Of a DNA stretch of 64,000 nucleotides, positions 21,671 to 45,634 are shown piece by piece. The notes under the pieces were generated by a model, which saw nothing but the letters and a program-made list of their open reading frames with translations, did no database searches and was not told where the DNA came from. Position 1 is the first letter of the stretch. Every line of letters starts with the position of its first letter. Source of the DNA: Watersipora subatra (Eukaryota > Bryozoa > Gymnolaemata > Cheilostomatida > Watersiporidae); assembly GCF_963576615.1 (NCBI RefSeq), contig NC_088717.1:59446749-59510748 (forward strand), given 5' to 3'. A program made the position numbers and the translations under genes.

Positions 21671-22913
21671 ATGTCCACCAACGACCTGTCTGTTCTTGTT
21701 ACCCTAGCATTACTGGGAGTTTGCTTGGCTTCACACAGTAAGAAAAACTTCTAAGCCTAGAATAAGTTTCCATTTGCTTCATCGTACTTATTTTGACTCC
21801 TCATCTGCTGGAGTCGTCATCACTCTCATCAGCGCTTGACAATATCAGCTTGTTTGAAGATTATAGCATGGATTTTGTTCAGTTGTAGAAACTGTGATTG
21901 CAAGCCGCAATTTTGCTTTTTTCTGATCACTTGTAGTCGAGTTGCTAGAAAACTGCGGAGGGGTACTAGATGTGAGCAAAATATCACGAGGAGTTATCAG
22001 CCTTCATGGAAAAGATAAACCTTCTTCAAGTGGCGACTGTTCTTTCACTCTAAAAAAATCAACCTCTGACACAGTTGTGTATGTGCGATTCATTGTAAGT
22101 ATTAAATATTTTTAATAAAATAATATATTAAAATTGAAACTATAGTAATACATAACATGTGTGATCTTGCACTGCATAGCTGCAGTCTGCTCTTGATGAT
22201 TATATTTGTGATTACATGCGTAATATTTGCTATAATACTGACCAGTGTAACGAGAAATTTCGCATGGTAGTCGCTACTAACTTTAATAACGCATGGTACT
22301 CTGTTATTAAAGTTCACAGCATTGAGTTGACAGTATCAAAGGCTCCTGTTACTATGTGACCTGACACTATCGGTAGGTCTGGTACCATGAGTGTTGGGTA
22401 TTGAGTCATTAGTTTGCAATCAAGATCAGCTGAACCTTAATTTTATCAAATCATCTTTAGGGTCTATTTATCAGTTAGCAAGTATTTTAGTTTGCTGCCT
22501 TTTTGTAGGGCATCGATCTGAAGAAATGTGGAGGAGCAACTCTGTCTGTGACGGAGCTGTCAGACAGTAAATATGACAGCTATGAAGTCTTCACCTCTTC
22601 TCCACACTTTTGCTCTAAACGCATTTGGGTTTCAGATCCATCGAACATGATCCAATGGTATTTACCATCCTAAGGGTAATCTTTCTCTCCCTCTCCTTCT
22701 CTTCTTCTTCTCTCTCTCTCTCTCTTTTCCTCTCTCTCACTTTCTTACTCTCTCTCCTCTCACTGTCTTTCTCTCTACCTCTCCTCTCCCTCCTCTCTCC
22801 CCTCTCTCTATCTCTCTTTACTTCTCCTCTCTTTCTCTCTCCACTTTCTTTCTCTCCCTTTTTTTCTCTTTACCTCTCCTTTCACTCTCTCATGCTCTCC
22901 TCTTGCTCTATCC

Positions 22914-23296: not shown

Positions 23297-23409
23297 CTCT
23301 CTCTCTCTCCTTCTCTCTCTCTACCTCTCTCTATCCCTCTCTCCCCCCTCTCTCTCTACCTCTCTCTATCCCTCTCTCCCCCCTCTCTCTCTACCTCTCT
23401 CTCTCTCTA

Positions 23410-23486
<77 letters not shown>

Positions 23487-26388
23487 CTCTCCCTCCCTCT
23501 CTCTCTACCTCTCTCTCTCTCTACCTCTCTCTATCCCTCTCTCCCCCCTCTCTCTCTCTCTACCTCTCTCTCTCTCTCCCTCTCTCTCTACCTCCCTCTC
23601 TCTCTCCCTCTCTCTCTCTCTACCTCCCTCTCTCTTTCCCTCTCTCTCACTACCTCTCTTTCTCTCTACCTCTCTCTCTCTACCTCCCTCTCTCTCTCCC
23701 TCCCTCTCTCTCTCTCCCTCTCTCTCTCTCTCTACCTCTCTCTCTCTCTCCCTCTCTCTCTACCTCCCTCTCTCTCTCCCTCTCTCTCTCTCTACCTCCC
23801 TCTCTCTTTCCCTCTCTCTCTCTACCTCTCTTTCTCTCTACCTCTCTCTCTCTCTACCTCCCTCTCTCTCTCCCTCCCTCTCTCTCTCTCCCTCTCTCTC
23901 TCTCTCTACCTCTCTCTCGCAGTTAGTCGAAGAAGCAATGACTGTCTATGGTTGTGGTTTACGTATGATAGCAGATTTCCAATCAGCTCGATTACAAGCA
24001 ATCATCTGTCATAAGTTTGTTTAATGTATGAGTAATAACGTAGCATAAAATGCCTTTGTTCAGGCTATAGGGACTTGTGAGTTTTGTTCTCTCCTTCAAT
24101 AAAAGGCAGCAGTAGATTAGCGGTAGATTACTGCTGAAACTAATGTTAATCTTATCTGCACACACCAGAGTTAAAATATGTGTGTTTTTGATAGTTTCTA
24201 ACGCAGCTAGTCACCCTCTATTGACTACTCAGGTTGCTAGACCAAATGGATTTGTTGTTCAGCTCAGAAGCAAAGAATTTTTATTCACGTCTTTGGCTGC
24301 GATTTGATGGATAATCTGCTGAGATCTAACTAGTTTATTGTTTTTTACTGGTGGATATTCTATTGACCATTGACCAGTCATGGAGCTCAGTTTATTACTA
24401 TTTACTGGTGGATATTCTATTGACCAGTCATGGAGCTCAGTTTATTGTTATTTACTGGTGGATATTCTATTGACCATTGACCAGTCATAGAGCTCAGTTC
24501 ATTGTTATTTACTGGTGGATATTCTATTGACCATTGACCAGTCATAGAGCTCAGTTTATTACTATTTGCTGGTGGATATTCTATTGACCAGTCATGGAGC
24601 TCAGTTTATTGTTATTTACTAGTGGATATTCTATTGACCATTGACCAATCATAGAGCTCAGTTTATTATTATTTACTGGTGGATATTCTATTGACCATTG
24701 ACCAATTATAGAGCTAATGTCAACTAGCAGCTCTTGTGCCCCCTTCTACAGGTTTGACAGCTCACCATACACATTTAAAGTTACCAATGTTGACCAGCTG
24801 GACCCCTCAGACGAGGCCATGTTTGAGTTCACTTCAGGTGAGAAATGACTAGCCTTAAACAATCACAGAGAAAACTTTGTTGTATTTCGCTCTGTACTTT
24901 TAAGGGCATGCTGGCAAAATTAACTCATTTTGGTGATATTCCTAGTACACCCCTAGTACACCCCTTGTACACCCCTTATGATTTTTAAGGGTTTTACGTG
25001 CATTTAATAATAAGGAAATAAATCCTAATTTATTCATATGCAGAGTGAAGTGAATTCTATAACTCAATTTGAATTACAAAAAAGAAAACTAACAGCCACA
25101 CTAGACATACGCAGGCATCGCCTAATGTACTGCACGAATGACACTTGGTATACATACCTTCTTTACAACTCATGCATGGTGTTACTACAATGGCAGTTAG
25201 CTTGAGTCTGATAGGCTAACAATGTTCGAAGGTTCCATTACCTAAAGCAAAACTAACAATTTTCTCGTTGTTAAACATATGCTTGGTGTGTAATAGCAGC
25301 TAATCCTAAAAGGCTGATTTGTCATATTTTATCTACGCAACTTTTATTGAAAAGTTTATTTTTGAGCTCATATTTACTTACTCATATTACTACTGTGATG
25401 TCACTCATATTACTACTGTGATGTTACTCATATTATTACTGTGATGTTACTTATATTACTACTGTGATGTTACTCAAATTACTACTCTGATGTTACTTAT
25501 ATTACTACTGTGATGTTACTCAAATTACTACTCTGATGTTACTTATATTACTACTGTGATGTTACTCATATTACTACTGTGATGTTACTCATATTACTAC
25601 TGTGATGTTACTCATATTATTACTGTGATGTTACTTATATTATTACTGTGATGTTACTCAAATTACTACTCTGATGTTACTCATATTACTACTGTGATGT
25701 TACTCAAATTACTACTCTGATGTTACTTATATTACTACTGTGATGTTACTCATATTACTACTGTGATGTTACTCATATTACTACTGTGATGTCACTCACA
25801 TTATTACTGTGATGTTACTCATATTACTACTGTGATGTTACTCATATTACTACTGTGATGTTACTCATATTATTACTGCGATGATACTCATATTACTACT
25901 GTGATGTTACTCATATTACTACTGTGATGTTACTCAAATTACTACTGTGATGTTACTCATATTATTACTGTGATGTTACTCATATTACTACTGTGATGTT
26001 ACTCATATTACTACTGTGATGTTACTCATATTATTACTCTGATGTTACTCCTATTACTACTGTTATTGCAGATAGGCAAATTATAAACATGACCATCTTC
26101 CTAGAGATTGCGCCTGTTACAACTTGAATTTGTTTTCCTTGACCTGACTCTTTTAATTTTTAGGTGATCTAAAGTTTAAACGAAAGAAATGTTTACAGGT
26201 ATTTTGACAAAATGGGTCTGGAAGTAGTTGCAAATTCTGCCTTTCACCTTTTCCAGTTTTTTACTGATGCAAAACAGAATACAACCTTCAGCGTAAAATC
26301 AACTTTTTACCCCTCATTGGCAATAAGCATACTTCTTGTAGCTGGAATAGTTTTGAGATGTATACAACATCTGTTTTATTGGTTATAG
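21671..26388 (+). CDS. Secreted CUB-like domain protein with hydrophobic C-terminal anchor
   Basis: Seven exons: 21671-21737, 21937-22094, 22509-22657, 23927-23962, 24752-24837, 26164-26198, 26257-26388, giving 220 residues. The ATG at 21671 is chosen because it opens a signal peptide (MSTNDLSVLVTLALLGVCLA); the frame stays open upstream to 21542 but adds no signal. Residues about 27-165 fit a divergent CUB fold: NCGG at 28-31, GDC at 55-57, two more cysteines in exon 3 (KKCGG and HFCSK), then the WLWFTFDSSP strand that spans exons 4 and 5. Exon 4 is only 36 bp, and its acceptor (TTAG against the CAG four bases earlier) was chosen by phase. Exon 7 encodes FFTDAKQNTT and then a hydrophobic run, SLAISILLVAGIVL, near the C-terminus, so the product is probably membrane-attached. 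CUB domains bind proteins or glycans outside cells; the ligand is unknown. Exon 5 can also join 26958 in frame. Confidence 0.72.
22680..23919 (+). repeat. 1.24-kb CT-rich simple-sequence tract, intron 3 of the CUB gene
   Basis: Almost pure pyrimidine: (CT)n mixed with CCCTCTCTCTCTACCTC-type units. All three forward frames stay open as Leu/Ser/Pro-rich strings, which is a composition artefact. It runs directly into the acceptor of the 36-bp exon 4. Such tracts can form triplex (H-) DNA. Confidence 0.95.
24330..24720. repeat. About 57-bp minisatellite, about 7 copies, intron 4 of the CUB gene
   Basis: The unit contains ACTGGTGGATATTCTATTGA and GTCATGGAGCTCAGTTTATT. Some copies lack a 9-bp CCATTGACC duplication, so unit length varies. 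It ends about 30 bp before exon 5. Confidence 0.9.
25375..26065. repeat. 23-bp minisatellite, about 29 copies, intron 5 of the CUB gene
   Basis: The unit is ATTACTACTGTGATGTTACT plus CAT. Variants TATTACTG and CAAATTACTACTCTG recur in blocks. It lies between the CUB exon 5 and the anchor exons. Confidence 0.92.
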
Positions 26389-26957: not shown

Positions 26958-28029
26958 CTCCTCAGGGTGTGCAAGCCTTTTGGTCTACTCAATCCACAAC
27001 AAGTGACTTACCAACCACTGCTGACTATCCAACTTCTACTACTGTTGTCACACAAACTGTTAAATTTCCTATTAATCCGACAACACAGAGTCAATCAACA
27101 ACTAAAAAAGAACTAGCAACTGTTATTAAAAAACTGACAACTCCAAAACAGAAAACTATCACAATGGTCGCAACTAGTAATGCTGCTAAAGAACCATCAA
27201 CCACTGCAATAAAGCTGATAACCACCTCTACAGCCGAACCAACAACAACCATAACAAAATTTACCACCCCTACGACAGAACATACAACAACCTCAATAAA
27301 ACTAACATCTACAACAGAACCGACAACCACTACAACAGAACCAACAACAGCCACAACAAAACCAACAACAATCATAACTAAGCCGACAACCACCTCTACA
27401 ACAACCACAACAAAACCGAGGATCACCATTACAACAAAACCGGCAACCACCACAACGAAACCAACAACAAACACAATAAAACCAACAACCACCACATCAG
27501 CATCAACAACAACCACAACAAAACCGGCAACTACCACAGCAACATCAACAACTACTACAACAACATCAACAACCACCACATCAGCATCAACAACAACCAC
27601 AATAAAACCATCAACCACCACATCAGCATCAACAACCACAACAAAACCGACAATCACCACAACAGAATCAACGACAACCACAACAAATTCAACAAGAATC
27701 ATAACTAAACCGACAACCACCTCTACAACAACCACAACAAAACCGACGACCACCACTACATCAAAACCGACAACCACCACAACAAAACCAGCACCAACCC
27801 CGATAAAACCAACTACCACCACATCAGCATCAACAACAACTACAACAAAACTGGCAACTACCACAACAACATCGACAACCACCACAACAAAACCATCAAC
27901 CAACGCAACAAAACCAACCACCACAATAAAACCAACAACAACTACTTTGAGACCAACAACTATCCCATCAAAACAACCAACTCTGACTGCTTCACCTGAG
28001 TCAACAACTACAAAATTTCCAGGATATAG
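26958..28029 (+). other. Thr-rich mucin-like exon of the cysteine-module gene
   Basis: One 1072-bp exon, phase 1 to phase 2. It encodes APQGVQAFWSTQSTTSDLPT followed by Thr-rich text built of KPTTTT, SASTTTTT and EPTTTT words. Codon variation among Thr triplets (ACA, ACC, ACT, ACG) and the strong acceptor (GGTTTCAG) support coding. The complementary strand is open as a Val-rich frame, an artefact of the ACN/GTN complement. Such regions are usually densely O-glycosylated. Confidence 0.75.
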
Positions 28030-31000
28030 GTTAGTGTGTTTATAACAGCATGCGCTACATTCATTCGTACTATAGATCTTCCTTGAAATGAAAGGTTTTA
28101 GGTAATGAGGTCTGGAGCTACTATAGTTAGTAACATGTGTATATGCAATCTGGTTGAACTAATACAAGGCTTGTTGTCTACATGGCTTTTAGATGGATCA
28201 GCCGAGAAGTGGCTTTGCTTTGAAGTTGCCTTGAACCATAAGAGAATGTTTATAGAGTAAAAGGTTTCCTGTTGGAGTTGTTTTACCAAAATTAAAGTTC
28301 AACAGACCTCCATAAAACAGTCAAAAATTGAAAATCATACCAGCATATGTGTCGAGTCTGAGTAGAGCCTAATTGGCTGTAGCTATTTCTGAAGAGATGC
28401 ACCAAAGTTGTAAGGGTAAAAACTGCTTGAAAGAAAAGTGTTTGCTGGGTGAGAGCTGACATACATGTACATGTAATAGCAAGTAAAAAGATAAAATGTT
28501 TCAAATGTTGAGTACTTTAGGAATGAGATATAAAGTGTATATCATAAAAATATATGTCAATTGATTTATGTAACGCCTACCACTAGTGAAGGGCTGAAAT
28601 TAAGCTCATAAGACAAGGTCTTTTGTATCCATGTTTTTATGGAGTTGTGTTATCAACTTTGTAGTTTTCCTATGTAAGATAAATCTTTATATATTTTAGA
28701 AAGATGTATTATTATATTATAAATTTTACTTGTTTTTTATACAGTTGCGCCTGCTCCTTCACCTCAAGCAGGTCTTATGGAAGCTTCAATTGGAGCCCAC
28801 ATATTGTGCCAGCTGGTGGGATTATACCAGACAAGAATGTACAAGCTAGCAACTGCCAACAAGCCACAAGTCTCTGCAAAACCTATTGTGCAAAGGAAAG
28901 TATGTATCATAACTAGCAGTATCATAACTCGTTGGTAATCGAATGCGTCTGCCACTAGGAAACACTATTCTGCAGTTTTGCTGATCGTCAAATGTTGAAT
29001 GTTTTAACTGATTCATTTGTTTAACTGACTCATTCAAGTATGATTTCAATGCTTTGTTGTAGTGAAAGACAAAAGACTAAATATCACTGGAGCTCAGTCT
29101 AAGCTAGCAAATGGTATAACACTTGGTAAGGGCCTATCGCTATCGCTATTGTCTAACTAGGAATGTGTCATTAGAGAGTGGCTGACACCAGTATATAGAA
29201 TGAATTTCAATTCAATATAGAATATATATATTTTCAAATATATATAAATATATAAAATTAAATTTTAAATATAAGATTAAGAATAAATTTTTAAGTATAT
29301 ATATTTAGAATATATATATATATTTTATATATATATTCTCAATTTCAATATAGAATGAATTTAATAGCATGAATGTAGCAGTATATGGGCATAAGCACAA
29401 CATGACCTAGATGTTCAACAAGAGTACCAGGCTTAAATATAGCAGTGCACAAACACAGGAGCACATGAACCTAATCAGACTGCAGCAACACAACACATGA
29501 ACACAATCAGGCTGAAGCAACACAACACATGAACATAATCAGGCTGAAGCAACACAACACATGAACATAACCAGGCTGAAGCAACACAGCACATGAACAT
29601 AACTAGACTGAAGCAACACAGCACATGAACATAACTAGACTGAAGCAACACAGCACATGAACATAACCAGGCTGAAGCAACACAGCGCATAAACATAACT
29701 AGACTGAAACAACAAAGCACATGAACATAACCAGACTGAAGCAACACAGCACATGAACATAACCAGACTGAATCAACACGACACATGAACATAATCAGGC
29801 TGAGTCAACACAACACATGAACATAATCAGGCTGAAGCAACACAACGCATGCACATAACCAGACTGAAGCAACACAGCACATGAACATAACCAGACTGAA
29901 GCAACACACCGCATGAACATAACCAGGCTGAAGCTACACAACACATGAACATAACCAGACTGAGTCAACACAGCACATGAACATAACCAGACTGAAGCTA
30001 CACAGCGCATGAACATAACCAGACTGAAGCTACACAGCGCATGAACATAACCAGGCTGAATCAACACGACACATGAACATAATCAGGCTGAGTCAACACA
30101 ACGCATGAACCTAACCAGGCTGAAGCAACACAGCAAATGAACATAACCAGGCGGAAACAACACAGCAAATGAACATCACCAGGCGGAAACAACACAGCAC
30201 ATGAACATAACCAGGCTGAAACAACACAGCATATGAACATAATCAGGCTGAAGCAACACAGCATATAAACATAACCAGACTGAAGCAACACAGCACATGA
30301 ACATAACCAGACTGAAGCAACACAGCACATGAACATAACCAGGCTGAGTCAACACAGCGCATGAACATAACCAGGCTGAGTCAACACAGCGCATGAACAT
30401 AACCAAGATGAAACAGAACAGTGTTTAAGAACAACATGATCTAAACAACAGTTTTACAAAACCAGGCCCAAAGTATAACAGTACATGAACATAAACAGGC
30501 CAAAGTGCAATGACACATGACCTCAACATGACCTTAACAAAGCCTAACTAAAGGCTAAACTAAAACAGTATATCTATGTAGTGAGATATTTATAGAGTGC
30601 TGAATGTCACTGAGTTCATTAAAAAATTTTTTATAAATGAAGTTGTAAGGGAAGTCAATAAAAACCAGGAAGTAAATTAAAAACAGTACTTGGTGGGTTC
30701 AGTATAGATTATTTTGTTATATGGAGGAATTTAGAGACTAACTGCCACTTGAAATCGATACTTTTTATAATATTCAATAATTTAATTTTAAAAACTTACA
30801 TACTCAATTTTACTTCTGAGTGAGTGAGTAGTACAGCGTAGTTAGCCCAAGGAAAAAAGCCTTAAAAAATCATGGTTATTAATGAGAACTACTTATATAT
30901 CCATAACTTGTGTCTGAATGGCAATCTATTTAAAATATTTAACATATTAAAAAACAGTAAAACAAAATAATCAATAACTGGAATATTGCAGCTGAAGTAT

Positions 31001-34000
31001 CGGTAGTGTTACTCCAGCTCTCATCATATATCTGTAATAAGACACTGTGTAGATGAGCATATATCTGTAATAAGACACTGTGTAGATGAGCATATACCTG
31101 TAATAAGACACTGTGTAGATGAGCATATATCTGTAATAAGACACTGTGTAGATGAGCATATACCTGTAATAAGACACTGTGTAGATGAGCATATATCTGT
31201 AATAAGACAGTGTGTAGATGAGCATATATCTGTAATAAGACACTGTGTAGATGAGCATATATCTGTAATAAGACACTGTGTAGATGAGCATATATCTGTA
31301 ATAAGACACTGTGTAGATGAGCATATATCTGTAATAAGACACTGTGTAGATGAGCATATACCTGTAATAAGACACTGTGTAGATGAGCATATATCTGTAA
31401 TAAGACACTGAGTAGATGAGCATATACCTGTAATAAGACACTGTGTAGATGAGCATATATCTGTAATAAGACACTTCGTAGATGAGCATATATCTGTAAT
31501 AAGACAGTGTGTAGATGAGCATATATCTGTAATAAGACACTGTGTAGATGAGCATATATCTGTAATAAGACACTTCGTAGATGAGCATATATCTGTAATA
31601 AGACACTTCGTAGATGAGCATATATCTGTAATAAGACAGTGTGTAGATGAGCATATATCTGTAATAAGACACTGTGTAGATGAGCATATATCTGTAATAA
31701 GACACTGTGTAGATGAGCATATATCTGTAATAAGACACTGTGTAGATGAGCATATATCTGTAATAAGACACTGTGTAGATGAGCATATATCTGTAATAAG
31801 ACACTGTGTAGATGAGCATATATCTGTAATAAGACACTGTGTAGATGAGCATATATCTGTAATAAGACACTTTGTAGATGAGCATATACCTGTGATAAGA
31901 CACTGTGTAGATGAGCATATACCTGTAATAAGACACTGTGTAGATGAGCATATACCTGTAATAAGACACTGTGTAGATGAGCATATATCTGTTATAAGAC
32001 ACTGTGTAGATGAGCATATATCTGTAATAAGACACTGTGTAGATGAGCATATATATGTAATAAGACAGTGTGTAGATGAGCATATACCTGTAATAAGACA
32101 CTGTGTAGATGAGCATATATCTGTAATAAGACACTGTGTAGATGAGCATATATCTGTAATAAGACACTGTGTAGATGAGCATATATCTGTAATAAGACAC
32201 TGTGTAGATGAGCATATACCTGTAATAAGACACTGTGTAGATGAGCATATATCTGTAATAAGACACTGTGTAGATGAGCATATACCTGTAATAAGACACT
32301 GTGTAGATGAGCATATATCTGTAATAAGACAGTGTGTAGATGAGCATATATCTGTAATAAGACACTGTGTAGATGAGCATATATCTGTAATAAGACAGTG
32401 TGTAGATGAGCATATATCTGTAATAAGACACTGTGTAGATGAGCATATATCTGTAATAAGACACTGTGTAGATGAGCATATACCTGTAATAAGACACTGT
32501 GTAGATGAGCATATACCTGTAATAAGACACTGTGTAGATGAGCATATATCTGTAATAAGACACTTTGTAGATGAGCATATACCTGTAATAAGACACTGTG
32601 TAGATGAGCATATATCTGTAATAAGACACTGTGTAGATGAGCATATACCTGTAATAAGACACTGTGTAGATGAGCATATACCTGTAATAAGACACTGTGT
32701 AGATGAGCATATATCTGTAATAAGACACTGTGTAGATGAGCATATACTTGTAATAAGACACTGTGTAGATGAGCATATACCTGTAATAAGACACTTCGTA
32801 GATGAGCATATACCTGTAATAAGACACTGTGTAGATGAGCATATATCTGTAATAAGACACTGTGTAGATGAGCATATACCTGTAATAAGACACTGTGTAG
32901 ATGAGCATATACCTGTAATAAGACACTGTGTAGATGAGCATATATCTGTAATAAGACACTGTGTAGATGAGCATATACTTGTAATAAGACACTGTGTAGA
33001 TGAGCATATACCTGTAATAAGACACTTCGTAGATGAGCATATACCTGTAATAAGACACTGTGTAGATGAGCATATATCTGTAATAAGACACTGTGTAGAT
33101 GAGCATATATATGTAATAAGACACTGTGTAGATGAGCATATACCTGTAATAAGACACTGTGTAGATGAGCATATATCTGTAATAAGACAGTGTGTAGATG
33201 AGCATATACCTGTAATAAGACACTGTGTAGATGAGCATATATCTGTAATAAGACAGTGTGTAGATGAGCATATACCTGTAATAAGACACTGTGTAGATGA
33301 GCATATATCTGTAATAAGACACTGTGTAGATGAGCATATATATGTAATAAGACACTGTGTAGATGAGCATATACCTGTAATAAGACACTGTGTAGATGAG
33401 CATATATCTGTAATAAGACACTGTGTAGATGAGCATATACCTGTAATAAGACACTGTGTAGATGAGCATATATCTGTAATAAGACACTGTGTAGATGAGC
33501 ATATATATGTAATAAGACACTGTGTAGATGAGCATATACCTGTAATAAGACACTGTGTAGATGAGCATATATATGTAATAAGACACTGTGTAGATGAGCA
33601 TATACCTGTAATAAGACACTGTGTAGATGAGCATATATCTGTAATAAGACAGTGTGTAGATGAGCATATACCTGTAATAAGACAGTGTGTAGATGAGCAT
33701 ATACCTGTAATAAGACACTGTGTAGATGAGCATATATATGTAATAAGACAGTGTGTAGATGAGCATATACCTGTAATAAGACACTGTGTAGATGAGCATA
33801 TATCTGTAATAAGACGCTGTGTAGATGAGCATATATATGTAATAAGACAGTGTGTAGATGAGCATATACCTGTAATAAGACACTGTGTAGATGAGCATAT
33901 ATCTGTAATAAGACACTGTGTAGATGAGCATATACCTGTAATAAGACACTTTGTAGATGAGCATATACCTGTAATAAGACACTGTGTAGATGAGCATATA

Positions 34001-37000
34001 TCTGTAATAAGACACTGTGTAGATGAGCATATATCTGTAATAAGACACTGTGTAGATGAGCATATACCTGTAATAAGACACTTTGTAGATGAGCATATAC
34101 CTGTAATAAGACGCTGTGTAGATGAGCATATACCTGAGACTTGTAAATATTTGACAAGAGAAAATGAAACCGACTCTTTACATCACCTTGCTACTCTGAT
34201 CAGGTAGTTTGATATAGGCTGGAGTCTTATTGGCCACTGATTGGTTTTTATTATAGTTATAAGGGTTTTGAAGGCTGCTATAACTTCTACATACTGATAT
34301 GCTAGACACACCAGTGCAACATTGTTACTTCCAGTGTTATCACAAGGCAATATCTTAGAACCTTAGCAGTGAGTAGTAGTTATAACTCTCTCACACAATT
34401 GTTGATAGACTTAAACAGGTGAAGTAGTCTAGCTCAGTTCACTGACTCAAACTTACACAGAACTCAAATAGCAAACTTCCGTCTTACTTGAGTTACAGAA
34501 GATCAAGTAGCAGTGTGAGCTTTTCTTGCTCATTGTTTGTGATATTGGTGTCTGTGATTAGAAGAAAATGAATGATACTAGCGAACTGTATTGACAGTGA
34601 CAGTGACAGACCATTTATGTAGTTGTAACCAACATACACTCCATGATAGTTAGCTGAAACCAGTCGTATAGCTAAGTAAATGTTTCTTACAGGTGAGAAG
34701 GTTTGTGCAGCCGTCGCATGGAGCTACACTGTTGGACCAGATCTGTCTGTTACTTATCAAGTACCCAGTTGTGTCGCATTGTCAAGGGATGCCTTTGGTT
34801 TAGTAGCTTTGATAGACAACAACTTCTGCTGTAAATGGTCAAGTGTTGCAGGCACTTCTACAATGAAGCACTTCACATGTGTTAATAAGTATGGAAGATA
34901 TGGAGTAACTAGCATATAACACGTTAAAATTTTTGATGACTGCAATCACCAAATCCTTTTACAATAGTATTGTTGCCCTATTCATTTTGAACCTGTAGAT
35001 GGAAACCTTAAACCTGTCTTATTAATTGACCTAAACAGCAGATTTAACGTAACAAGAAACTAGTTGTATCGCTCGCTTAACTTTATAGATTAGAAGTATT
35101 AGATATATTATAGAGTAGATAGAGATATTACAAATTGTATAACTGTATAATTTTGACTGCCACCAGTTGCTAGATTGTTTGACTGATAAACAAGCTAATC
35201 ATGAGATTCTTATTAGAAGTTCATATATAGCAGTAGGTAATTTCAGTTCTATCCAAAGAGCTAATGACAAATGAGATCATTAGTAACAGTACTTTAGAGG
35301 TAGTTAGTAACAGTACTTTAGAGGTAGTTAGTAACAGTACTTTAGAGGTAGTTAGTAACAGTACTTTAGAGGTAGTTAGTAACAGTACTTTAGAGGTAGT
35401 TAGTAACAGTATTTTAGAGGTAGTTAGTAACAGTACTCTAGAGGTAGTTGGTAACAGTACTTTAGAGGTAGTTAGTAACAGTACTTTAGAGGTAGTTAGT
35501 AACAGTAATTTGACAAACCGTAAAAGGTTTGTTCTTACTAACCATTTAATGCTCTCATTTTAGCACCTCAACTTCTCCTAAAACAACTTCAGTACCATCA
35601 ACAGTACCAACAACAACCTCTCCTCTCAGAACTGAAAAGTAAGGTATCAGTAATCAGCACACAGGCTACTGCTATTCAGTTCCCATAATACAGGTTTCTG
35701 GTGCCAGCATCCACTGTATTTTTGATACACTAGTTGTTGGTACTAGTATCCAATCAACTCACCCCATCTTTCTATACTGTATACCAGCTCTTGGTACTGG
35801 AATCAAAACTGTGCGTAGTAGTTATGGATGCTTCTTTGTTGGTAGTAGTGTATTATTATCTGGTCTGCAATTATCACATAATATCTGTTAACATGTAAAC
35901 ATCTACCAGAATCTCTGTATGCATTTAGATGTCAATGTCCAATTAGCTTGCGAAGCAACACAGGCACATCTTCATTTGATATCACACGTAAAATCTATCG
36001 AAACTCAAAACTCATTCCAAGCAAAAACATTCAAGGAGCAGACTGTACAGAAATAAAGACTAACTGTCAAGCATACTGCAATGCATATGGTAAGGGAAAA
36101 TTACATATCTATTGCGCCTAACAACAGTTTATACTTGTAAGTTTATGATGGAATGGTTAAGTGAGCCCAACCTAAAATCTCTGTTTGTGCTTAGAGTGCC
36201 TACCGGTACGTTAAAACGAATAAAGCCTGGTACATATCTGTTTTGATGTTTGATGTTTTGAAGATGGTTTATTTTGATAGTATTTACTCATGTTATAGTT
36301 AAGAGTGCCAACATAACACGAAACAGTGTGATGACAGACACCAGTGGAGTCCATCAGTCGCTTGGTACGTATACATCATGATATTGTCTAGTATATGCTT
36401 TGCATTCTACTTGCCGCCTCATTCTTAGTTCTTGTTTGAATGTTTTATTCTTTACTTTGAACTGAGGCAACTGTTATTTACCTTGGACTGATGCAACTAT
36501 TCTTTATCTTGGACTGATGCAACCGTTCTTTACCTTGGACTGATGTAACTGTATTTATAAATGACTTGAAACTGGACAATTATTGGTTTTAATGACATAA
36601 TATTTTTTTAATGACTTTCATCTTTTGTTAAGGTAGTTTCAGCTGGTTTCAGGTGGTTTTAGTGGCAGTTAGTTTGCAAAGTAATAGGAAAAAATATACG
36701 TATATACAAGTTGCTTGAAGCATAGCGCTTAAATCATCGTAATAAATAACTGTGTAGATACGTGTATTGGTGTTTAGGGACCACTAATGGGAAATGCTTG
36801 TACAGTAATGTTTAGGGAACTACATGTGTGAACTGTTTGTATGTTAATATTAAGGAGACCATATGTGTGACCTCTTTAACACTCCACTAAGACAGTCCGG
36901 GCGAGGAGGCCAACTCGAAGTACTGTACCGAGCTATAAAGTGCAACTTTTCTCCAAACAAGAATACTGTAGCCACAATTCTTTCCAAGCCCTTTTGTTGT

Positions 37001-40000
37001 GCCTTTGATGCTCGCGGTACAAAGTTCAAGCAGAGGACCTGTATTCCCCCAACCACCACTCCATTTCCCACAACTATAATGAGAACGATTCCTGCCACCA
37101 CTTCTCTGCCAGCTTTTGCTAAAACACTGTTAGTAGATTGAGTTGTGAAAATTCCCATTGTTCGTAATGTTTTTGCCTAAACAAGAGATATTAACATGCT
37201 CACAACCCATTTAGGTTTATGTGAGGTCTGGAAATTATGATTGTGACTTGTACCTGTTTGGATCAGTAGATTCATAGCTGCAGACATGACTAAACATCAA
37301 CATTATGTAGCAGGGTATAAATAAACTAGTGTCGGAGGTTGTAGAGAAGCACCTTGGCTGTTTTCATTGCCGAACAAGAGGAATAGGATATATTAGTCTT
37401 GCTAGTAACACAGGTTTACTTCATTTATGCCTGAGATATCTGTTTTAGTCTCAACAATGATATACAGCCCCAATATATAATTGGGCTGTATATCATTGGT
37501 CTCAACCTTTGACATCAATTGGCTTGCAAGGTCATTTAGTTATCAGAAATATTTTCTCCCTTGTCTCATCTAGCATAATAACCATTCTATAGATAGATAC
37601 AGCATTAGGATTACAAGTTTAAAGCTCAACAGGGCCACACTGGCAACCATGCTGTGATTTTAACAGATGCCGTTGTGTAATTGGAATAAGCTGGTCGGAG
37701 AACAACAAACGTCAAAAGGAAGTATACATCAAAGATGAGGACGTCATCAAGCCACACCTAGTGTCAGCCACCAGCTGCCGTGTAGCCAGAAACCAGTGTC
37801 ACAACTATTGTGGCACTAAGGGTAAACTTCTTCAGGCTTGCGCTCATCAAAAAGTACTGATCAAAAAACTTATCTCTTGCTTTGAAGCCAGAGCTTCTGT
37901 TAATATTGTTATGTAGGTTGGGTTTGCTGTCACACCCCCAAATTCAACTTGTGTTTATAACTATGTATTGTTTTAGCTAACCAGATTGATGGAGGGACGT
38001 ACATCTATGGCTATACAACAGAGATTGGTGAGTATAACTAATGCTGCCACAAAATCTTGCTATAGCATTGCTATAGCTGGCTAGCTGCATTAGCATTGCT
38101 ATAGTTTGGAGTTATTGCTTCATGAATTGTCAGTGCTGTGGATTATTCACTTTGACTTAGATTTGGAAATTAGGACCCACATTCTTTGGCTTCTACATGA
38201 GTTTATCATTGTTTGTTGATAAATGTCATGCATCCACATATTACCCGTTTTTCATCTTTATGGAGTTGTCTTACTTATGCCTTTTAAGAAATACATAATG
38301 CAATTGACTTCCTTGAACCAACTTTCTTGATATTCTAGTCTAACTAATACCTCAGTCTTGCAGAGCTTGTGTAAGATAGCAGTCCTTTGAAATCTTTTCT
38401 TGTGAGCGTCTAATCAGTAGGCAAATTACTTGAAATCTGATAAATGCAATACCTATCTACTCTACATGTGACGCGGATGGAAACATGTGACACTTATAAG
38501 CACTGACAATTGCTGATCAGGTGATGAAGTGTGCCACCAGCATGATGAACGGGTGAAAGGAGATTCAGCAGCTGCCTTGCAGGTGTTCCTTGATGTTGGA
38601 CATTGCAGCGACTCCCAGGCAGTAAAAGACACAGTTGTAGCGAGTCTAGAGGATCCCTACTGCTGCGGAGGACCTGCTGGAGACAGGGAATGGACTGAAT
38701 GCAACAGGTGAGCTTTCTTTTTCAACTTGTAGTTTTTTTTTATCAGACAGGCGACTCCTACCAGTATAAATTCAGTTTGATCATAGCAAGATATAATCTA
38801 CTCCAGACAGACAACTCCTACCTGTATAAATTCGGTTTGATCACAACAAGATATAATCTACTCCAGACAGACGACTCCTACCAGTATAAATTCAGTTTGA
38901 TCACAACATGATATAATCTACTCCAGACAGACGACCCCTACCTGTATAAATTCAGTTTGATCACAACAAGATATAATCTACTCCAGACAGACGACTCCTA
39001 CCTGTATAAATTCAGTTTGATCACAACAAGATATAATCTACTCCAGACAGACGACTCCTACCAGTATAAATTCAGTTTGATCACAACATGATATAATTTA
39101 CTACAGACAGGCGACTCCTACCTGTATAAATTCAGTTTAATCACAAGAACATATAATTTACTCTAGACAGACAACTCCTACCAGTATAAATTCGGTTTGA
39201 TCACAACAAGATATAATCTACTCCAGACATACGACTCCTACCTGTATAAATTCAGTTTGATCACAGCAAGATATAATCTACTCCAGACAGACAACTCCTA
39301 CCTGTATAAATTCAGTTTGATCACAACAAGATATAATCTACTCCAGACAGACGACTCCTACCTGTATGAATTCAGTTTGATCACAGCAAGATATAATCTA
39401 CTCCAGACAGACGACTCCTACCTGTATAAATTCAGTTTGATCACAACAAGATATAATCTACACCAGACAGACGACTCCTACCTGTATAAGTTCAGTTTGA
39501 TCACAACAAGATATAATCTACTCCAGACAGACGACTCCTACCTGTATAAGTTCGGTTTGATCACAACAAGATATAATCTACACCAGACAGACGACTCCTA
39601 CCTGTATAAATTCAGTTTGATCACAACAAGATATAATCTACTCCAGACAGGCAACTCCTACCTGTATAAATTCAGTTTGATCACAACAAGATATAATCTA
39701 CTCCAGACAGACGACTCCTACCTGTATAAGTTCGGTTTGATCACAACAAGATATAATCTACTCCAGACAGGCGACTCCTACCTGTATAAATTCGGTTTGA
39801 TCACAACAAGATATAATCTACTCCAGACAGACGACTCTTACCTGTATAAGTTCAGTTTGATCACAACAAGATATAATCTACTCCAGACAGACGACTCCTA
39901 CCTGTATAAGTTCGGTTTGATCACAACAAGATATAATCTACTCCAGACAGACGACTCCTACCAGTATAAATTCGGTTTGATCACAACAAGATATAATCTA

Positions 40001-43000
40001 CTCCAGACAGATGACTCCTACCAGTATAAATTCAGTTTGATCACAACAAGATATAATCTACTCCAGACAGATGACTCCTACCTGTATAAATTCAGTTTGA
40101 TCACAACAAAACATCATCTACTCCATGTTAATCTTTTGATTATCAGAATGTTTTGTCGCTTTAAAACGAGCCCCAAGCAGCCAATCAATCGTATAGCTAG
40201 AGTTGGTTGTCAGTGTATATTTAGTATGACTTTGGTTTTTATTTTGCAGGACAGACCCTGATCTACTGATTCTCTCAGAAAAGTATGTGAATACCAAAGT
40301 TATTGGCTGTGGTTCCATTAATGTATCAGCACCTGCATGTTAGCATTCCAAGTTGAACATCTCGTTATACCATGCTATACTCCTACCAGCTATGCCATGT
40401 TATTTCGTGGTATAATATACTGTACTATATTATTTTTTGCTAACTATACTATGCTGCACTATTTTATACTGCGCTGTATTATTTTGTACTATACTGTACT
40501 TTACTGTATTGCACTGTACTGTGCTAGTTGTACTGTGCAGTGCTCTACTGGGTAGTACTTGACTGAACTGCAATATGTTGCAATGTACCACACTGTACTG
40601 TGCAATGCTAGGCTAAACCACACTATACTGTGTTATACTACACTATGCAATACTACACTATGCTGCAGTACGCTATACTACACTAGGCTATACTGCACTA
40701 TGCTATACTACACTATGCTATACTGCACTAAGCTATACTGCACTATGCTCTACTACACTATGCTATACTGCACTATGCTATACTGCACTATGCTATAATA
40801 TACTATGCTATACCGCACTATGCTATACTACACTATGCTATTTACTGCACTACTCTATACTACACTATGCTATACTGCACTATGCTATACTGCACTATGC
40901 TACACTGCACTATGCTATACTACACTATGCTATACTGCACTATGCTATACTCCACCATACTGTATGTACTACACTAATACTGCACTACGCTATACTATGC
41001 ACCCAATCTCAGATGCCACTGCATGGTTGGCATGTCAACTGATGATGCCGGGTTTGGCATGACAATGGATGTGCAAGCTGAAGACCCCAGCATTATTAGA
41101 CCAAAGATGATCGATGGAAACAGCTGTGACTCTATCAATAGCCAGTGCGAAGATTATTGCAGAAGGAAAGGTCAGTATGTAACTTGAATGTGACTTGTTG
41201 GTGTGAGGAAAGAGTCCTAACCTATCTGAACTGCCTAATTTATTTGAGTTGTAACTGTATTGCAAACCTATCTAAATGGTTGCATCCCGCTCTTTTACTG
41301 TATCTACAACTTCTACTGTGGTATAATTCCAATAGATGCTGGTGGCATAGTTAGTTGATTGGTACAGTAACCACACGGACATCTGTATGCACCTATACGA
41401 GAATACTGTACACTTATCCACACATCAGTGTATGCTCTGTGTAGGCTTTTATGTTGTCACCAAAAAGTTTACAGCGTTGACAGTGGTGTAATGCTGAGTG
41501 TAATGCTGAGTGGAATGCTGAGTGTAATGCTGAGTGTAATGTTGAGTGTAATGCTGAGTGTAACGTTGTGTGTAATTTTGAGTGTAATGCTGAGTGTAAT
41601 GCTGAGTGTAATGCTGAGTGTATAGCTGAGTGTATAGCTGAGCGTAATATTGAGTGTATAGCTGAGTGTAATGCTGAGTGTAATGTTGAATGTAACGCTG
41701 AGTGTAGTTCTGAGTGTAATGCTGAGTGTAATGCTGAGTGTAATGCTGAGTGTAATGTTGAGTGTAATGCTGAGTGTAATGTTGAGTGTAATGCTGAGTG
41801 TAATGTTGAGTGTAATGTTGAGTGTAATGTTGAGTGTAATGTTGAGTGTAATGCTGAGTGTAGTTCTGAGTGTAATGCTGAGTGTAATGCTGAGTGTAAT
41901 GCTGAGTGTAATGTTGAGTCTAATGCTGAGTGTAATGCTGAGTGTAATGCTGAGTGTAATGTTGAGTGTAATGTTGAGTGTAATGTTGAGTGTAATGTTG
42001 AGTGTAATGCTGAGTGTAATGTTGAGTGTAATGTTGCGAGTATTGTTGCTTGTAACGCTGTGTGCAAAGTGTACACACCATTTAGCCAGTCCATGGACTT
42101 TACTGGAGTAGCTGTTTTACACCCAGACTTTTCTAAATGTTAGTCTTGACCCTAGTTAGAGAGAAATACCAGATGGCACCCTAATAGCTTTATTGCCTTT
42201 ACTGTGACACACTAACACCTCTATTGCTGTGACACACTGATCTTTTCCTTGCTGTGACACAATGAACTCTTTATTGATGTGGCACACTGATCTTCTCCTT
42301 GCTGTGGCACACTGAGCTCTTTATTGATGTGACAAACTATTTTGATACTAATAGGCAAAGTAAAGCAGGCCCTTAATGCATTTACTTGAGACAGCAGCAA
42401 AAGATCTTCTAGCCTTTGATCACATTTCATAGCTTTGTTGTTCATATGACAACAACATTGAAAAGTTATAGATTCTTAACAAAGCTGTTTCTGATTTATT
42501 TTAATCATACGTAATCTTCATAATACATGTACATGTAGATACCAGACAATTAGAAATAGCACATACTATATATGTATATACTTTACAGTCAATTTCAATG
42601 CATACCATGCATTCTGTTTTCATACAATATTTTAGTAGGAAGGTGGTAAACTTTCTACTAAGAGTAGGAAGTTATTTTACTAGTATTTTGGCAGCATAAA
42701 AGTTCATTTCCGATATGCTGAGACAATCTTTATGACAGTTTGCTGTGAATTCAGCAACCCAATTGTACAAGAGAGCTATACAGTTATGTGAATGCTAACT
42801 TTCTCTTTTGAATTTTAGCTGAGAAGATAACTCTCGACCAAGACTACATGTATGGAGGAATGAACACGATAGGTCAGTGACAACATGGAAAAATCTGCTA
42901 CTAACTATTTTGTTGATTGCATTGTTCAACCATCATGTCAGAATAATGAAATAATGGACACTTGTTGACAGGTGACGAGGTATGTCAACTTCACTACGCA

Positions 43001-45634
43001 AAAGTCTACAAGTCTGATAAAGCCAGCCTTCAACTTTTCTATGACACTGGGAGGTGTAGCGCCAATTCGGCGGTAGATGACTTGATAGTGAACACCCTTA
43101 CTGATCAGTTCTGTTGTGGGGGCTCGATAAACGCTCTTTACCAGACAGGTTGCCAAAGGTAAGCATCACACGGTCTGTTGGGGGTCAAATCAGATTTTTT
43201 CGCAACAAAAAACTGGCAGTAGTTTTGCTGATGTGAATGCATTGGTATTTCTTCACATTCTCTGGTTCCCTATTCATGCTGAATAATTGATGTGAATGTG
43301 AGTTTCCTCTATATTTGCAGCGCACCAACAACACCGCTTCCCGCTACAAACCATTTTACTGATGGGTATGTACTAGATGAATAATAACTTATACACCCCT
43401 GTCAGCTATCAAACTACTGAATAATAACTTATACACCACTGTCAGCTATCAAACTACTGAATAATAACTTATACACCACTGTCAGCTATCAAACTACTGA
43501 ATAATAACTTATACCCCCCTGTCAGCTATCAAACTACTGAATAATAACTTATACACCACTGTCAGCTATCAAACTACTGAATAATAACTTATACACCCCT
43601 GTCAGCTATCAAACTACTGAATAATAACTTATACACCACTGTCAGCTATCAAACTACTGAATAATAACTTATACACCCCTGTCAGCTATCAAACTACTGA
43701 ATAATAACTTATACACCACTGTCAGCTATCAAACTACTGAATAATAACTTATACACCACTGTCAGCTATCAAACTACTGAATAATAACTTATACACCACT
43801 GTCAGCTATCAAACTACTGAATAATAACTTATACACCACTGTCAGCTATCAAACTACTGAATAATAACTTATACACCACTGTCAGCTATCAAACTACTGA
43901 ATAATAACTTATACACCACTGTTAGCTATCAAACTACTGAATAATAACTTATACACCCCTGTCAGCTATCAAACTACTGAATAATAACTTATACACCACT
44001 GTCAACTATCAAACTACTGAGTAGATGTGTACATATTCTCGGCCAATCAGCTATCTCTATCTGGTGGCATCTTTTATTACTATAGACAAGTGAACTACCT
44101 GGTGTTTATCTATTCGATTGGTGGCCATCAAAGATGAACTTACACAAAAATTTGTAGATTTGATGAGAAAGTATCGGTATTTTTCTATCATTTGCGTTGT
44201 TTTTAAATGTTTGATATGATCTGACTGCCAGGGTGCTTCAAGATTAAAATCAATAAAACTTGATCACGATTGAAAAGCTCAAGTCAATCGAATGCGCGAT
44301 TATGATGTCAATAATGGCCATGAGATCGACAGAATAGAGACGGGTAACGCTGCAACTTGAATGCAATATCCGATATCAACCATCCCAACGATAACAATCA
44401 GTGATGTCATCGTGAACTTATTTTCATTTTGAGCGTTTTACTTGCAATCAAGTTTTATCGATTCTAACTTATAAACATTCTGGCAATCAGATCACCACAA
44501 ACATTCAAACTAATCGCAAATGATAGAAAAATATTGACATGTTCTGATTAAATCTACAAAAGAATTGATAAAGTTTATCTTAACCAGTATGCAGATGATG
44601 GGGACTGACTGTTTGATTATCAGCTAGTTATCAGCTAGTCAACTGTACCAAATTGTTTACAAGGTCTATCATAGACCTACTAACTATACACCGCATATTA
44701 ACTGTATAGTTCATAGGTCTATGAGGTCTATAGACAAGTTACGGTTACAGGTGTCGATGCAACCTAACTATAGAGACAGATGACTTTCATGAAACGTGGC
44801 CATTTTTCAAGATCTTATCAGATGCCAATCTGCCCAAAGTCTTCAATTTACAGTACGACTCATCAAGAAAATCATGCAAGAAAGCTCGTGATCTGTGCCA
44901 TGACATGTGCATGAAGGAAGGTATGTGACACATCTCAAACAAAAGTGGTAGTGGTATAAGTCACCATCTACATAGCTAAATATGTCATCGGTTAAAGGAG
45001 GAGGACACGGTGGGTATGTCCGAGAGTTTTATCATGAACAGTAGTTTTAAAGGAACAGCTGTGTGAGTGGTTTTATGTACTAGGCAAGCACTGATGAACT
45101 GAATCTACTGAATTTCTTCACAAAGTAGGTTTAAGAGCTACGCAGTAGGCATATTCATTAAATGACACCTCGTAATTACATACACTGTAGGTATATTCAC
45201 TGTATGACAACTCCTCTATTTTGCCAGCCGCCAACTACTTTGGTCAGGGCTCAAAAACACGGTTGTCATGGAAACAGCCTGGAACATGGATAACTAACTA
45301 CATGACCCTCGGTGAGAGTTTACCACTTATATTTACTCTATTCTATGTGTCGAGCTTGCGATCTAAAATACACGCATTCAAATTCACTTTTGGCAGTTAT
45401 GACTCGTCGGTTTCTTGGACTTTAGGCAAATACGCTTGCTCCGTGATTGATAACCCGGTGAGCGATCCTGTGACCTTTCTTGTAACATCCAACACACAAA
45501 AGTGCGGAGCCACACAGAATGAGGAAGACGTGACAGACCACCTAAATGAAGACATCTGCTGCGCGAAGAATTACTTGGGAGGACAGGCTTACAAGACTCC
45601 GTGTGACAGCAGTGATAACTCCATATTTGGCTAA
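26958..45634 (+). CDS. Mucin-like protein with five tandem 10-cysteine modules
   Basis: Nineteen exons: 26958-28029, 28745-28899, 29063-29125, 34693-34888, 35564-35638, 35929-36089, 36299-36364, 36855-37128, 37667-37821, 37977-38027, 38521-38707, 40250-40282, 41013-41170, 42819-42872, 42972-43158, 43321-43365, 44751-44920, 45228-45311, 45426-45634. All are GT-AG with continuous phase and give 1131 residues without a start codon, which must come from upstream (CUB exons 1-5, or the candidate at 26778). The product is a Thr/Pro-rich segment of about 357 residues and then five cysteine modules with short Thr/Pro linkers. The module signature is C-x-C-x(33-38)-C-x6-C-x3-C, then G-x3-C-x(21-24)-C-x(17-18)-CC-x(11-15)-C. 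I do not recognise this domain. Ten cysteines each suggest five disulfides in a secreted or surface protein; the mucin part suggests O-glycosylation. Function unknown. Introns are full of minisatellites. Confidence 0.78.
28030..28744 (+). other. Intron after the Thr-rich exon
   Basis: Non-repetitive intron of about 0.7 kb. Minus-strand frames at 28098-28289 and 28292-28504 have no domain or splice support. Nothing recognised. Confidence 0.55.
29214..29345. repeat. AT-rich palindromic low-complexity tract
   Basis: Runs of AATATATATATA and TATATATATTT with self-complementary halves, in the long intron of module 1. Able to form hairpins; no gene. Confidence 0.8.
29460..30415. repeat. 32-bp minisatellite, about 30 copies
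   Basis: The unit is ACACAGCACATGAACATAAC plus CAGACTGAAGCA. Because 32 is not a multiple of three, minus-strand frames cycle through all three translations (Cys/Val/Leu-rich), so the frames at 29475-30406 are not genes. Array in the long intron of module 1. Confidence 0.93.
30416..31020 (+). other. Intronic spacer between two arrays
   Basis: AT-rich sequence with decaying copies of the preceding 32-bp unit up to about 30540, then nothing recognisable. Confidence 0.55.
31024..34135. repeat. 33-bp satellite, about 94 copies
   Basis: The unit is CTGTAATAAGACACTGTGTA plus GATGAGCATATAT. Differences are confined to a few sites (CAC/CAG, TGTGTAG/TTCGTAG, ATATCT/ATACCT/ATATAT). Since 33 is a multiple of three and the unit lacks stops in several frames, reading frames of 700-1050 codons appear on both strands. 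They have no start context, domain or splice logic and lie inside an intron of the cysteine-module gene. Confidence 0.95.
34889..35270 (+). other. Intronic sequence, no feature recognised
   Basis: AT-rich intron 3' of the GEKVC exon, leading into the 24-bp array. Confidence 0.5.
35275..35510. repeat. 24-bp minisatellite, about 10 copies
   Basis: The unit is AGTAACAGTACTTTAGAGGT plus AGTT. The open frame through it (VSNSTLEV) results from the period of 24. It ends about 50 bp before the Thr/Pro linker exon at 35564. Confidence 0.92.
35929..37128 (+). other. Cysteine module 2 (3 exons; last two fused)
   Basis: Exons 35929-36089 (CQC ... DCTEIKTNCQAYC), 36299-36364 (linker) and 36855-37128 (GDHMC ... 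KC ... FCC ... TC, then a Thr/Pro tail). In the other internal modules the Thr/Pro linker is a separate exon; here the GDHMC exon reads straight into it (274 bp instead of about 187-196). Outer phases are still 2 and 2. The donor of the fused exon (ACACT|GTTAGT) was set by phase. Confidence 0.8.
36445..36550. repeat. About 26-bp repeat, 4 copies
   Basis: Copies of TTGGACTGATGCAACTATTC plus TTTACC in the intron between the linker and GDHMC exons of module 2. Confidence 0.8.
37448..37505. other. Near-perfect hairpin flanked by a 7-bp direct repeat
   Basis: GTCTCAA occurs at 37448-37454 and 37499-37505. Between them 44 bp fold into a hairpin whose arms are CAATGATATACAGCCC and GGGCTGTATATCATTG, with CAAT/ATTG extending the stem and a single bulge. 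It resembles a minimal palindromic insertion with a target duplication. It is intronic to the cysteine-module gene. Confidence 0.6.
37667..40282 (+). other. Cysteine module 3 (4 exons)
   Basis: Exons 37667-37821 (CRC ... SCRVARNQCHNYC), 37977-38027 (linker), 38521-38707 (GDEVC ... HC ... YCC ... EC) and 40250-40282 (short linker TDPDLLILSE). Phases 2-1, 1-1, 1-2, 2-2. The third exon is 187 bp, identical in length to its counterpart in module 4. The Thr/Pro linker has shrunk to 11 residues and is no longer Thr-rich. Confidence 0.8.
38745..40110. repeat. 60-bp satellite, about 23 copies
   Basis: The unit begins GACTCCTACCTGTATAAATT and ends CTACTCCAGACA. The period of 20 codons leaves frames open over 350 codons, but stops appear where a unit reads CATGATATAA. 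The array lies wholly inside the intron between 38707 and 40250, and its frame does not match the linker exon frame. Confidence 0.94.
40395..41000. repeat. 15-bp tandem repeats, about 35-40 copies
   Basis: Units of CTATACTGCACTATG and close variants, becoming regular after 40620. The array runs to within 10 bp of the acceptor of exon 41013. Confidence 0.92.
41171..41484 (+). other. Intronic sequence, no feature recognised
   Basis: Start of the intron after exon 41013-41170. Short frames on both strands lack domains. Confidence 0.5.
41485..42060. repeat. 12-bp minisatellite, about 48 copies
   Basis: Units GTAATGCTGAGT and GTAATGTTGAGT with a few GTATAGCTGAGT and GTAGTTCTGAGT. The frames in it (CNAE, MLSV, LHSA repeats) reflect the period of four codons only. 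Confidence 0.94.
42180..42335. repeat. About 40-bp repeats, 3-4 copies
   Basis: Copies of CTTGCTGTGACACACTGAGC with CTCTTTATTGATGTG, imperfect, in the intron between exons 41170 and 42819. Confidence 0.75.
43375..44020. repeat. 40-bp minisatellite, about 16 copies
   Basis: The unit is TACTGAATAATAACTTATAC plus ACCACTGTCAGCTATCAAAC. Almost the only variation is ACCACT/ACCCCT, so the array looks recent or homogenised. Intron between modules 4 and 5. Confidence 0.95.
44151..44560. mobile_element. Foldback MITE of about 410 bp
   Basis: The left end TTTGTAGATTTGATGAGAAA and the right end, in complement TTTGTAGATTTAATCAGAAC, begin inverted arms about 150 bp long. The shared blocks are ATTTTTCTATCATTTGCG, GATCTGA(C/T)TGCCAG and AAAACTTGAT. 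No coding capacity. Part of the right arm resembles 56925-57020. It lies in the intron before exon 44751. Confidence 0.75.
44660..44735. other. Imperfect hairpin just upstream of an exon
   Basis: AGACCTACTAACTATACA pairs with TGTATAGTTCATAGGTCT across about 15 bp, with repeated GGTCTAT words on both sides. It ends about 15 bp before exon 44751 and could affect acceptor accessibility. Confidence 0.45.
44751..45634 (+). other. Cysteine module 5 and C-terminus (3 exons)
   Basis: Exons 44751-44920 (CRC ... SCKKARDLCHDMC), 45228-45311 (linker, longest of the five at about 28 residues) and 45426-45634 (GKYAC ... KC ... ICC ... PC, then DSSDNSIFG and TAA). The last exon begins after TTTAG at 45425, which restores phase 1 and the G-x3-C motif; the open frame upstream of it is intron. 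No anchor or GPI signal follows, so this end is soluble. Confidence 0.82.

Follow-up and report, generated by a model that had tools for sequence, protein, structure and literature searches.

Ten-cysteine modules on a duplicated class 2-2 exon cassette in a predicted secreted mosaic protein of Watersipora subatra

Secreted mucins are a general class of proteins with cysteine-rich heads on Thr/Pro stalks. The Frizzled-type cysteine-rich domain (CRD) is an extracellular domain with ten cysteines, similar in size to the module described here, with the spacing C-x3-C-x6-C and no terminal CC. We analyzed a 64-kb stretch of DNA from the bryozoan Watersipora subatra (the window; C10:59446749-59510748, in contig C10 of its own genome assembly, 784 Mb in 239 contigs), where a gene predicted on the + strand encodes five copies (M1 to M5) of a module that also has ten cysteines. 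This module is a real domain family, and it has been duplicated as an unusual class 2-2 exon cassette. A review of exon shuffling (PMC8001218) states that modules of class 0-0 or class 2-2 would serve just as well, yet that every domain type used proved to be class 1-1. Positions below are window positions.

With its long Thr-rich tract (358 residues, 47% Thr) and its mostly Thr/Pro linkers between cysteine-rich modules, the predicted protein resembles secreted mucins, but its cysteine-rich module reaches the cut-off of none of the 24736 models in Pfam. The modules of the window are like the Frizzled-type CRD in length (about 120–130 residues) and in having ten cysteines, but they have C-x6-C-x3-C and a CC pair, and no match to Fz was listed in Pfam scans of eight modules (these five and three from a sister gene, described below). 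Like the mosaic extracellular modules treated in the exon-shuffling review (PMC8001218), the cassette is disulfide-rich, presumably secreted, flanked by introns of one phase, and can be duplicated in frame. Unlike them, it is class 2-2 and contains a linker exon of phase 1-1, and so far it has been seen only as duplicates within one pair of sister genes and in no other contexts.

An initial annotation of this DNA had described five modules with ten cysteines at characteristic spacings. We scanned all six frames of the window with mildly loosened versions of these patterns and counted the spacings, which reproduced all five. On the + strand, the scan picked up five copies of each half, with first and second halves in strict alternation. 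The lone extra match was a spurious first half in a low-complexity Thr repeat on the - strand. In 200 first-order Markov sequences of 64 kb, there was one match to the first half and none to the second half in total. Searching by pattern through the 100 kb that flank the window on each side (264 kb in total, with 200 N) gave no further copies.

Each of M1 to M5 has exactly ten cysteines. The number of residues between Cys1 and Cys2 is always 1, between Cys3 and Cys4 always 6, between Cys4 and Cys5 always 3, and between Cys8 and Cys9 always 0 (the CC pair). The other spacings, from M1 to M5, are 33, 35, 33, 34, and 38 (Cys2-Cys3); 28, 29, 24, 25, and 35 (Cys5-Cys6); 21, 24, 23, 23, and 21 (Cys6-Cys7); 18, 17, 18, 18, and 17 (Cys7-Cys8); and 15, 13, 11, 11, and 13 (Cys9-Cys10). 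A glycine lies four residues ahead of Cys6 in all five. C-x6-C-x3-C and G-x3-C had been called invariant, which is true of the five copies in the window but not of the sister gene, where module 2 has C-x8-C-x3-C and module 3 lacks the glycine at -4.

The gene model, which we built from the sequence, lies on the + strand; it begins at 21671 with its start codon, closes with the stop codon at 45632-45634, and has 23 exons and 1,284 amino acids. All 22 introns are GT-AG, and the only stop is the terminal one. The interval 28745..45634 that had been assigned to the repeats does hold all five modules, but the gene starts about 7 kb farther upstream. The predicted protein has a signal-peptide-like start, a CUB-like region (three exons), the Thr-rich tract (168 Thr, 35 Pro, and 33 Ser), and then M1 to M5 at the C-terminal end. 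By eye, no hydrophobic segment was seen at the C-terminus, so the protein would be secreted instead of membrane-bound. In the list of exons that follows, the module halves are placed by the pattern scan, the exon model, and cysteine spacing, and the linkers and the Thr-rich exon by the exon model, except where a line gives other details.

21671..21737, + strand: exon 1, start codon and signal-peptide-like MSTNDLSVLVTLALLGVCLASH (by eye), phase 0-1
21937..22094, + strand: CUB-like exon C1, phase 1-0; resembles the sister gene's region, without a Pfam CUB match
22509..22657, + strand: CUB-like exon C2, phase 0-2; resembles the sister gene's region
24752..24837, + strand: CUB-like exon C3, phase 2-1; resembles the sister gene's region
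26958..28029, + strand: Thr-rich mucin-like exon, phase 1-2
28745..28899, + strand: M1 first half (Cys1-5), phase 2-1
29063..29125, + strand: M1 short linker, phase 1-1
34693..34888, + strand: M1 second half (Cys6-10), phase 1-2
35564..35638, + strand: Thr/Pro linker exon after M1, phase 2-2
35929..36089, + strand: M2 first half, phase 2-1
36299..36364, + strand: M2 short linker, phase 1-1
36855..37128, + strand: M2 second half with fused Thr/Pro linker, phase 1-2; donor ACT/gttagt
37667..37821, + strand: M3 first half, phase 2-1
37977..38027, + strand: M3 short linker, phase 1-1
38521..38707, + strand: M3 second half, phase 1-2
40250..40282, + strand: linker exon after M3, phase 2-2; 11 codons, poor in Thr and Pro
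41013..41170, + strand: M4 first half, phase 2-1
42819..42872, + strand: M4 short linker, phase 1-1
42972..43158, + strand: M4 second half, phase 1-2
43321..43365, + strand: Thr/Pro linker exon after M4, phase 2-2
44751..44920, + strand: M5 first half, phase 2-1
45228..45311, + strand: M5 short linker, phase 1-1
45426..45634, + strand: M5 second half and stop codon, entered in phase 1

The first-half exons are 2-1 and the short linkers are 1-1 in all five modules. The second-half exons are 1-2 in four of the five, and that of M5 runs into the stop codon. The three separate exons for linkers between modules (after M1, M3, and M4) are all 2-2, and the linker of M2 lies inside its second-half exon (the sole fused linker among M1 to M4). 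The proposed pattern of separate exons with phases 2-1, 1-1, 1-2, and 2-2 is therefore right in its phases but too regular: the M2 linker is fused, and the linker exon after M3 is not rich in Thr and Pro. Because there are phase-2 introns at both ends of the cassette, copying within the gene keeps the frame. It had been suggested that the whole cassette is 2-2 and can be duplicated in frame; the phases in the window agree, and the finding that a second gene carries the same cassette goes beyond that suggestion. The equal end phases and the homologous tandem copies are those of a tandemly duplicated symmetrical exon cassette. A class 1-1 module would have phase-1 introns on both sides; in both genes, however, the inner linker is the one exon of the cassette with phases 1-1. 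The duplications of the cassette seen here are tandem duplication and gene duplication.

M2 is joined to M3 by a phase-2 donor, GTTAGT at 37129, the same hexamer as the donor of the Thr-rich exon. We rejected another donor for the second half of M2, GTAGAT (phase 0), which implied that the gene ends after M2; it broke the M2-M3 junction, and the upstream GTTAGT gives phase 2. We also considered that the transcript might end after M2, with M3 to M5 in another transcript or in a longer isoform. Unspliced read-through past the Thr/Pro tail of M2 would meet an in-frame TGA at 37139-37141, and a polyadenylation-like AATAAA lies at 37320, about 180 bases past the TGA, so a short isoform that ends there is possible. 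M2 is also the only one of M1 to M4 whose linker does not have its own exon, and no systematic search was made for an alternative first exon ahead of M3. However, the in-phase GTTAGT lies just ahead of the TGA, and the first exon of M3 has a phase-2 acceptor, like the other modules. We think that it is improbable that M3 to M5 belong to another transcript, and we keep the five-module model.

The intron within M5 (45312-45425) has 114 bases, which is a multiple of three, and its frame is open, so its retention would extend M5 without a stop. Tandem arrays lie in at least 9 of the 22 introns of the gene (22658-44750), by a tally that took in only 12 of the larger arrays. One intronic array (31025-34136) has 94 copies of a 33-bp unit, and another (38744-40125) has 23 copies of a 60-bp unit.

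To compare the modules beyond their cysteines, we held the cysteines fixed and shuffled the residues within each inter-cysteine segment (500 shuffles). The similarity summed across the ten pairs of window modules was above that of all 500 shuffles. For individual pairs, the z scores were 10.1 for M3/M4, 4.75 for M1/M2, 2.6 for M2/M4, 1.9 for M2/M3, and 1.7 for M1/M5, and from 0.8 to 1.2 for the remaining five. These scores indicate that M3/M4 and M1/M2 are clearly related in sequence beyond the cysteines; the other pairs are united by the cysteine layout, the phases, and the summed signal. By segment (200 shuffles each), conservation was strongest for Cys5-Cys6 (z = 6.3), Cys2-Cys3 (z = 4.5), and Cys7-Cys8 (z = 3.9), and no conservation above the shuffles was seen for Cys3-Cys4 (z = 0.1) or Cys9-Cys10 (z = 0.9).

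The five window modules are 18–36% identical to each other, and across the eight modules of both genes, 25 of the 28 pairs are 16–26% identical. Synonymous divergence (dS) is saturated in 8 of the 10 pairs of window modules and in 24 of the 28 pairs overall. These values bear out the initial annotation in its claim of old duplications that diverged between retained cysteines. The proportion of nonsynonymous differences (pN) is below that of synonymous differences (pS) in 28/28 pairs, which agrees with coding constraint, and nonsynonymous divergence (dN) is below dS in the 4/28 pairs with estimable dS.

Each module would be one folded unit, encoded by two exons with five cysteines per exon. Alternatively, the two halves could be independent five-cysteine domains that alternate by chance. 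The halves are on separate exons, the Cys5-Cys6 linker varies from 24 to 35 residues, and the first half alone gives a moderate structural model containing three strands and one helix. But the alternation is strict in 5/5 modules of the window and 3/3 of the sister gene, and the linker segment is conserved above shuffles (the z of 6.3). Furthermore, the cysteine count of each half is odd in the window's gene, so if all ten are oxidised, then at least one disulfide joins the halves. We consider independent halves to be very unlikely, and we treat the ten-cysteine module as the unit.

We found the sister gene by using the N-terminal region of the protein as the query in a protein search of its own genome. 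Besides its own exons, there were two weak matches, at C4:42599117 (E = 0.985) and C2:698760 (E = 7.88). A 20-kb piece of contig C4 contains two CUB-like exons, one Thr-rich exon, and three modules. The model of this gene, which begins at the first CUB-like exon and ends at the stop codon, has 14 exons and 806 residues, with a stop only at the end; 12 of the 13 donors are GT and the other is GC. Its phases are identical to those in the window (first half 2-1, linker 1-1, second half 1-2 or to the stop, linker exon 2-2). With a profile built from M1 to M5, sister modules 1, 2, and 3 (without linker exons) scored 29.5, 23.0, and 14.9 bits, and neither the 1,000 cysteine-fixed nor the 1,000 full shuffles made from each of them reached the real score. 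The CUB-like regions of the two genes match with 40.2 bits, whereas none of 1,000 full shuffles exceeded 10.2 bits. At C2:698760, there is a signal-like start and then CUB-like sequence in one open frame, without a Pfam match; this is a possible third relative of the gene.

In sister modules 1 and 2, FYC takes the place of the CC pair, with a cysteine six residues on, and the last cysteine is within the next linker exon. In the final models, seven of the eight modules have ten cysteines and sister module 3 has eight. That all eight have an even count, though the positions moved, fits a disulfide constraint.

Searches of the same genome with M3 to M5, with M1 and M2, or with the sister gene less its module 3 found places in the query's own gene only, and even there most of the known modules were missed. 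As a query, the first half of M2 found, besides itself, only that of M1 (E = 0.09), and the second half of M3 found only that of M4 (E = 1.3e-9). Since a search with one module overlooks most of the known ones, the two genes are a lower bound for the family, and absence elsewhere is not implied.

We compared the modules, as single-sequence queries, to all 24736 Pfam models, with each family's curated cut-off as the criterion. None of the eight modules reached it. The best sub-threshold matches were to unrelated families: PF24664 for M3 (E = 0.044, 12.2 bits versus a cut-off of 27) and PF22082 for sister module 3 (E = 0.031, 14.8 bits versus a cut-off of 27). The concatenation of M3 to M5 matched no Pfam family at E of 1. 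Profile searches of PDB sequences gave no significant match (best E of 0.71 with the five modules and 0.36 with the eight). With M4 as the query, there was one pattern match in viral contigs, unconfirmed, and 18 in prokaryotic genome contigs, none of them confirmed; no relatives were found in either collection. The window has no match in Rfam, and structural searches with the weak models of half-modules (see below) were uninformative. Generic keyword searches of the literature found no such module named, which is no evidence for its absence from print. That the initial annotation did not recognise the domain in any known family is in keeping with the Pfam result (0/5 window modules at a cut-off) and with the lack of a significant match in the PDB profile search.

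The module might nevertheless be a highly diverged member of a disulfide-rich family that is already named (or that is named in InterPro, PANTHER, or an AlphaFold cluster) and that is beyond the reach of single-sequence Pfam and PDB profile searches. The sequence comparisons covered Pfam, PDB, the viral and prokaryotic collections, and the module's own genome, and most of the modules are just 16–26% identical to each other. Pfam can miss diverged family members, as with the gene's own CUB-like region, which also lacks a match despite its similarity to the sister's, so at such divergence a miss in Pfam is weak evidence. On the other hand, eight modules from two genes all fell short in Pfam, with best E values of 0.031 and 0.044 to unrelated families, and neither the five-module nor the eight-module profile did better than the E values above in PDB. 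We regard a diverged member of a named family as a real possibility, if a rather doubtful one. Judged against Pfam, PDB, and the viral and prokaryotic collections, the module is likely, though unproven, to be undescribed. More tentatively, there is a fair-sized chance that it is an extracellular disulfide domain that is undescribed and perhaps restricted to one lineage. It would spread as a class 2-2 cassette, an exception among mobile extracellular modules to the class 1-1 rule, and its cysteines would change position from one sister gene to the other without loss of the even count.

The anatomy of the gene, its phases, the homology of its repeats, and its sister gene are observed, and with these in hand we lean toward the following proposal: this one gene encodes a secreted mosaic protein with five disulfide-rich modules on a mucin stalk and a multivalent role in adhesion or matrix. 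The gene would be transcribed, and the secreted protein would have a signal peptide, a CUB-like domain, a long, extended Thr-rich stalk (probably O-glycosylated), and the five modules. The modules, of about 130 residues each, would be rich in disulfides and linked by short, mostly Thr/Pro-rich segments. The cassette (first half, linker, and second half, sometimes followed by a linker exon) would have spread by tandem exon duplication in the two sister genes. The modules would be small, rigid, protease-resistant heads for binding or cross-linking, repeated along the mucin stalk, and they may provide multivalent adhesion within extracellular matrix such as mucus or cuticle.

We also considered that the function might be immune recognition or decoy binding (by a soluble pattern-recognition or self/non-self protein) instead of matrix adhesion. 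The strong divergence between the cysteines, the CUB-like domain, and the large clusters of CUB exons in the genome (see below) would fit. However, there is no sign of positive selection, with dN below dS in the 4/28 estimable pairs and pN below pS in 28/28, although saturation weakens this test; and by eye, no transmembrane or effector domain was seen. An immune role seems unlikely to us, and we prefer an adhesive or matrix role.

Several points weigh against our proposal. The adhesive or matrix function is proposed from the architecture, the signal peptide (MSTNDLSVLVTLALLGVCLASH) was judged by eye, and all exons of the five-module gene were predicted from the sequence. The CUB-like identity of the N-terminal region is also a call by eye: it resembles the CUB domain (PF00431) in its CGG start, its main cysteines, and its alternating hydrophobic residues, but it and the sister region have no Pfam CUB match. 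Specifically, PF00431 (cut-off 21.4 bits) had no match in the region 21937-24837 at E of 1 and none in the sister region at E of 10, and in a search of the genome with PF00431, neither locus was among the 150 scored matches listed of 325 candidates. AlphaFold models of the separate halves are weak (pLDDT of 69.2 for the first half, with its three strands and helix, and 51.8 for the second), and the single compact fold is accordingly a proposed one. As for the sister gene, a scan of 1.5 kb upstream did not reveal its first exon. The ten cysteines of its module 2 depend on a linker exon that was chosen by eye (because of its phase and because it resembles the first linker exon); otherwise there are nine. 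Its module 3 beat the shuffles by a small margin (14.9 versus 13.6 bits for the best shuffle), is shorter, has eight cysteines, and has a GC donor on its first-half exon (4334-4461 of the fetched piece of C4). This module could be decaying.

If our proposal is confirmed, the module would be a new disulfide-rich domain in the extracellular repertoire of animals. It would also be a clear case of an extracellular module that propagates with phase-2 introns at its borders, and so be relevant to the predominance of class 1-1 among shuffled modules, a problem raised in the exon-shuffling review (PMC8001218). The natural variation between the two sister genes (the moved cysteine and the copy with eight) could be used to deduce the disulfide pairing.

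Elsewhere in the genome, CUB exons (at least 150 scored matches among 325 candidates) are clustered on contigs C1 (46.1 Mb), C2 (40.3 and 54.4-56.0 Mb), C5 (46.8-47.2 Mb), C7 (64.7-65.1 Mb), C8 (64.2-65.0 Mb), and C9 (37.4 Mb), which suggests expansions of CUB genes or domains. Within the window, the upstream gene on the + strand (about 15700-20420) encodes immunoglobulin domains (Ig_3, E = 8.4e-16), and its short, hydrophobic end resembles, by eye, that of a protein with a glycosylphosphatidylinositol (GPI) anchor. On the - strand, at about 46200-56000, there is a gene for an M3-family peptidase (48183-48317 matches Peptidase_M3, E = 1.7e-7), which, from a motif seen by eye, we take to be probably mitochondrial intermediate peptidase. 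Finally, a satellite with about 92 copies of a 50-bp unit occupies 59420-64000 and reaches the end of the window.
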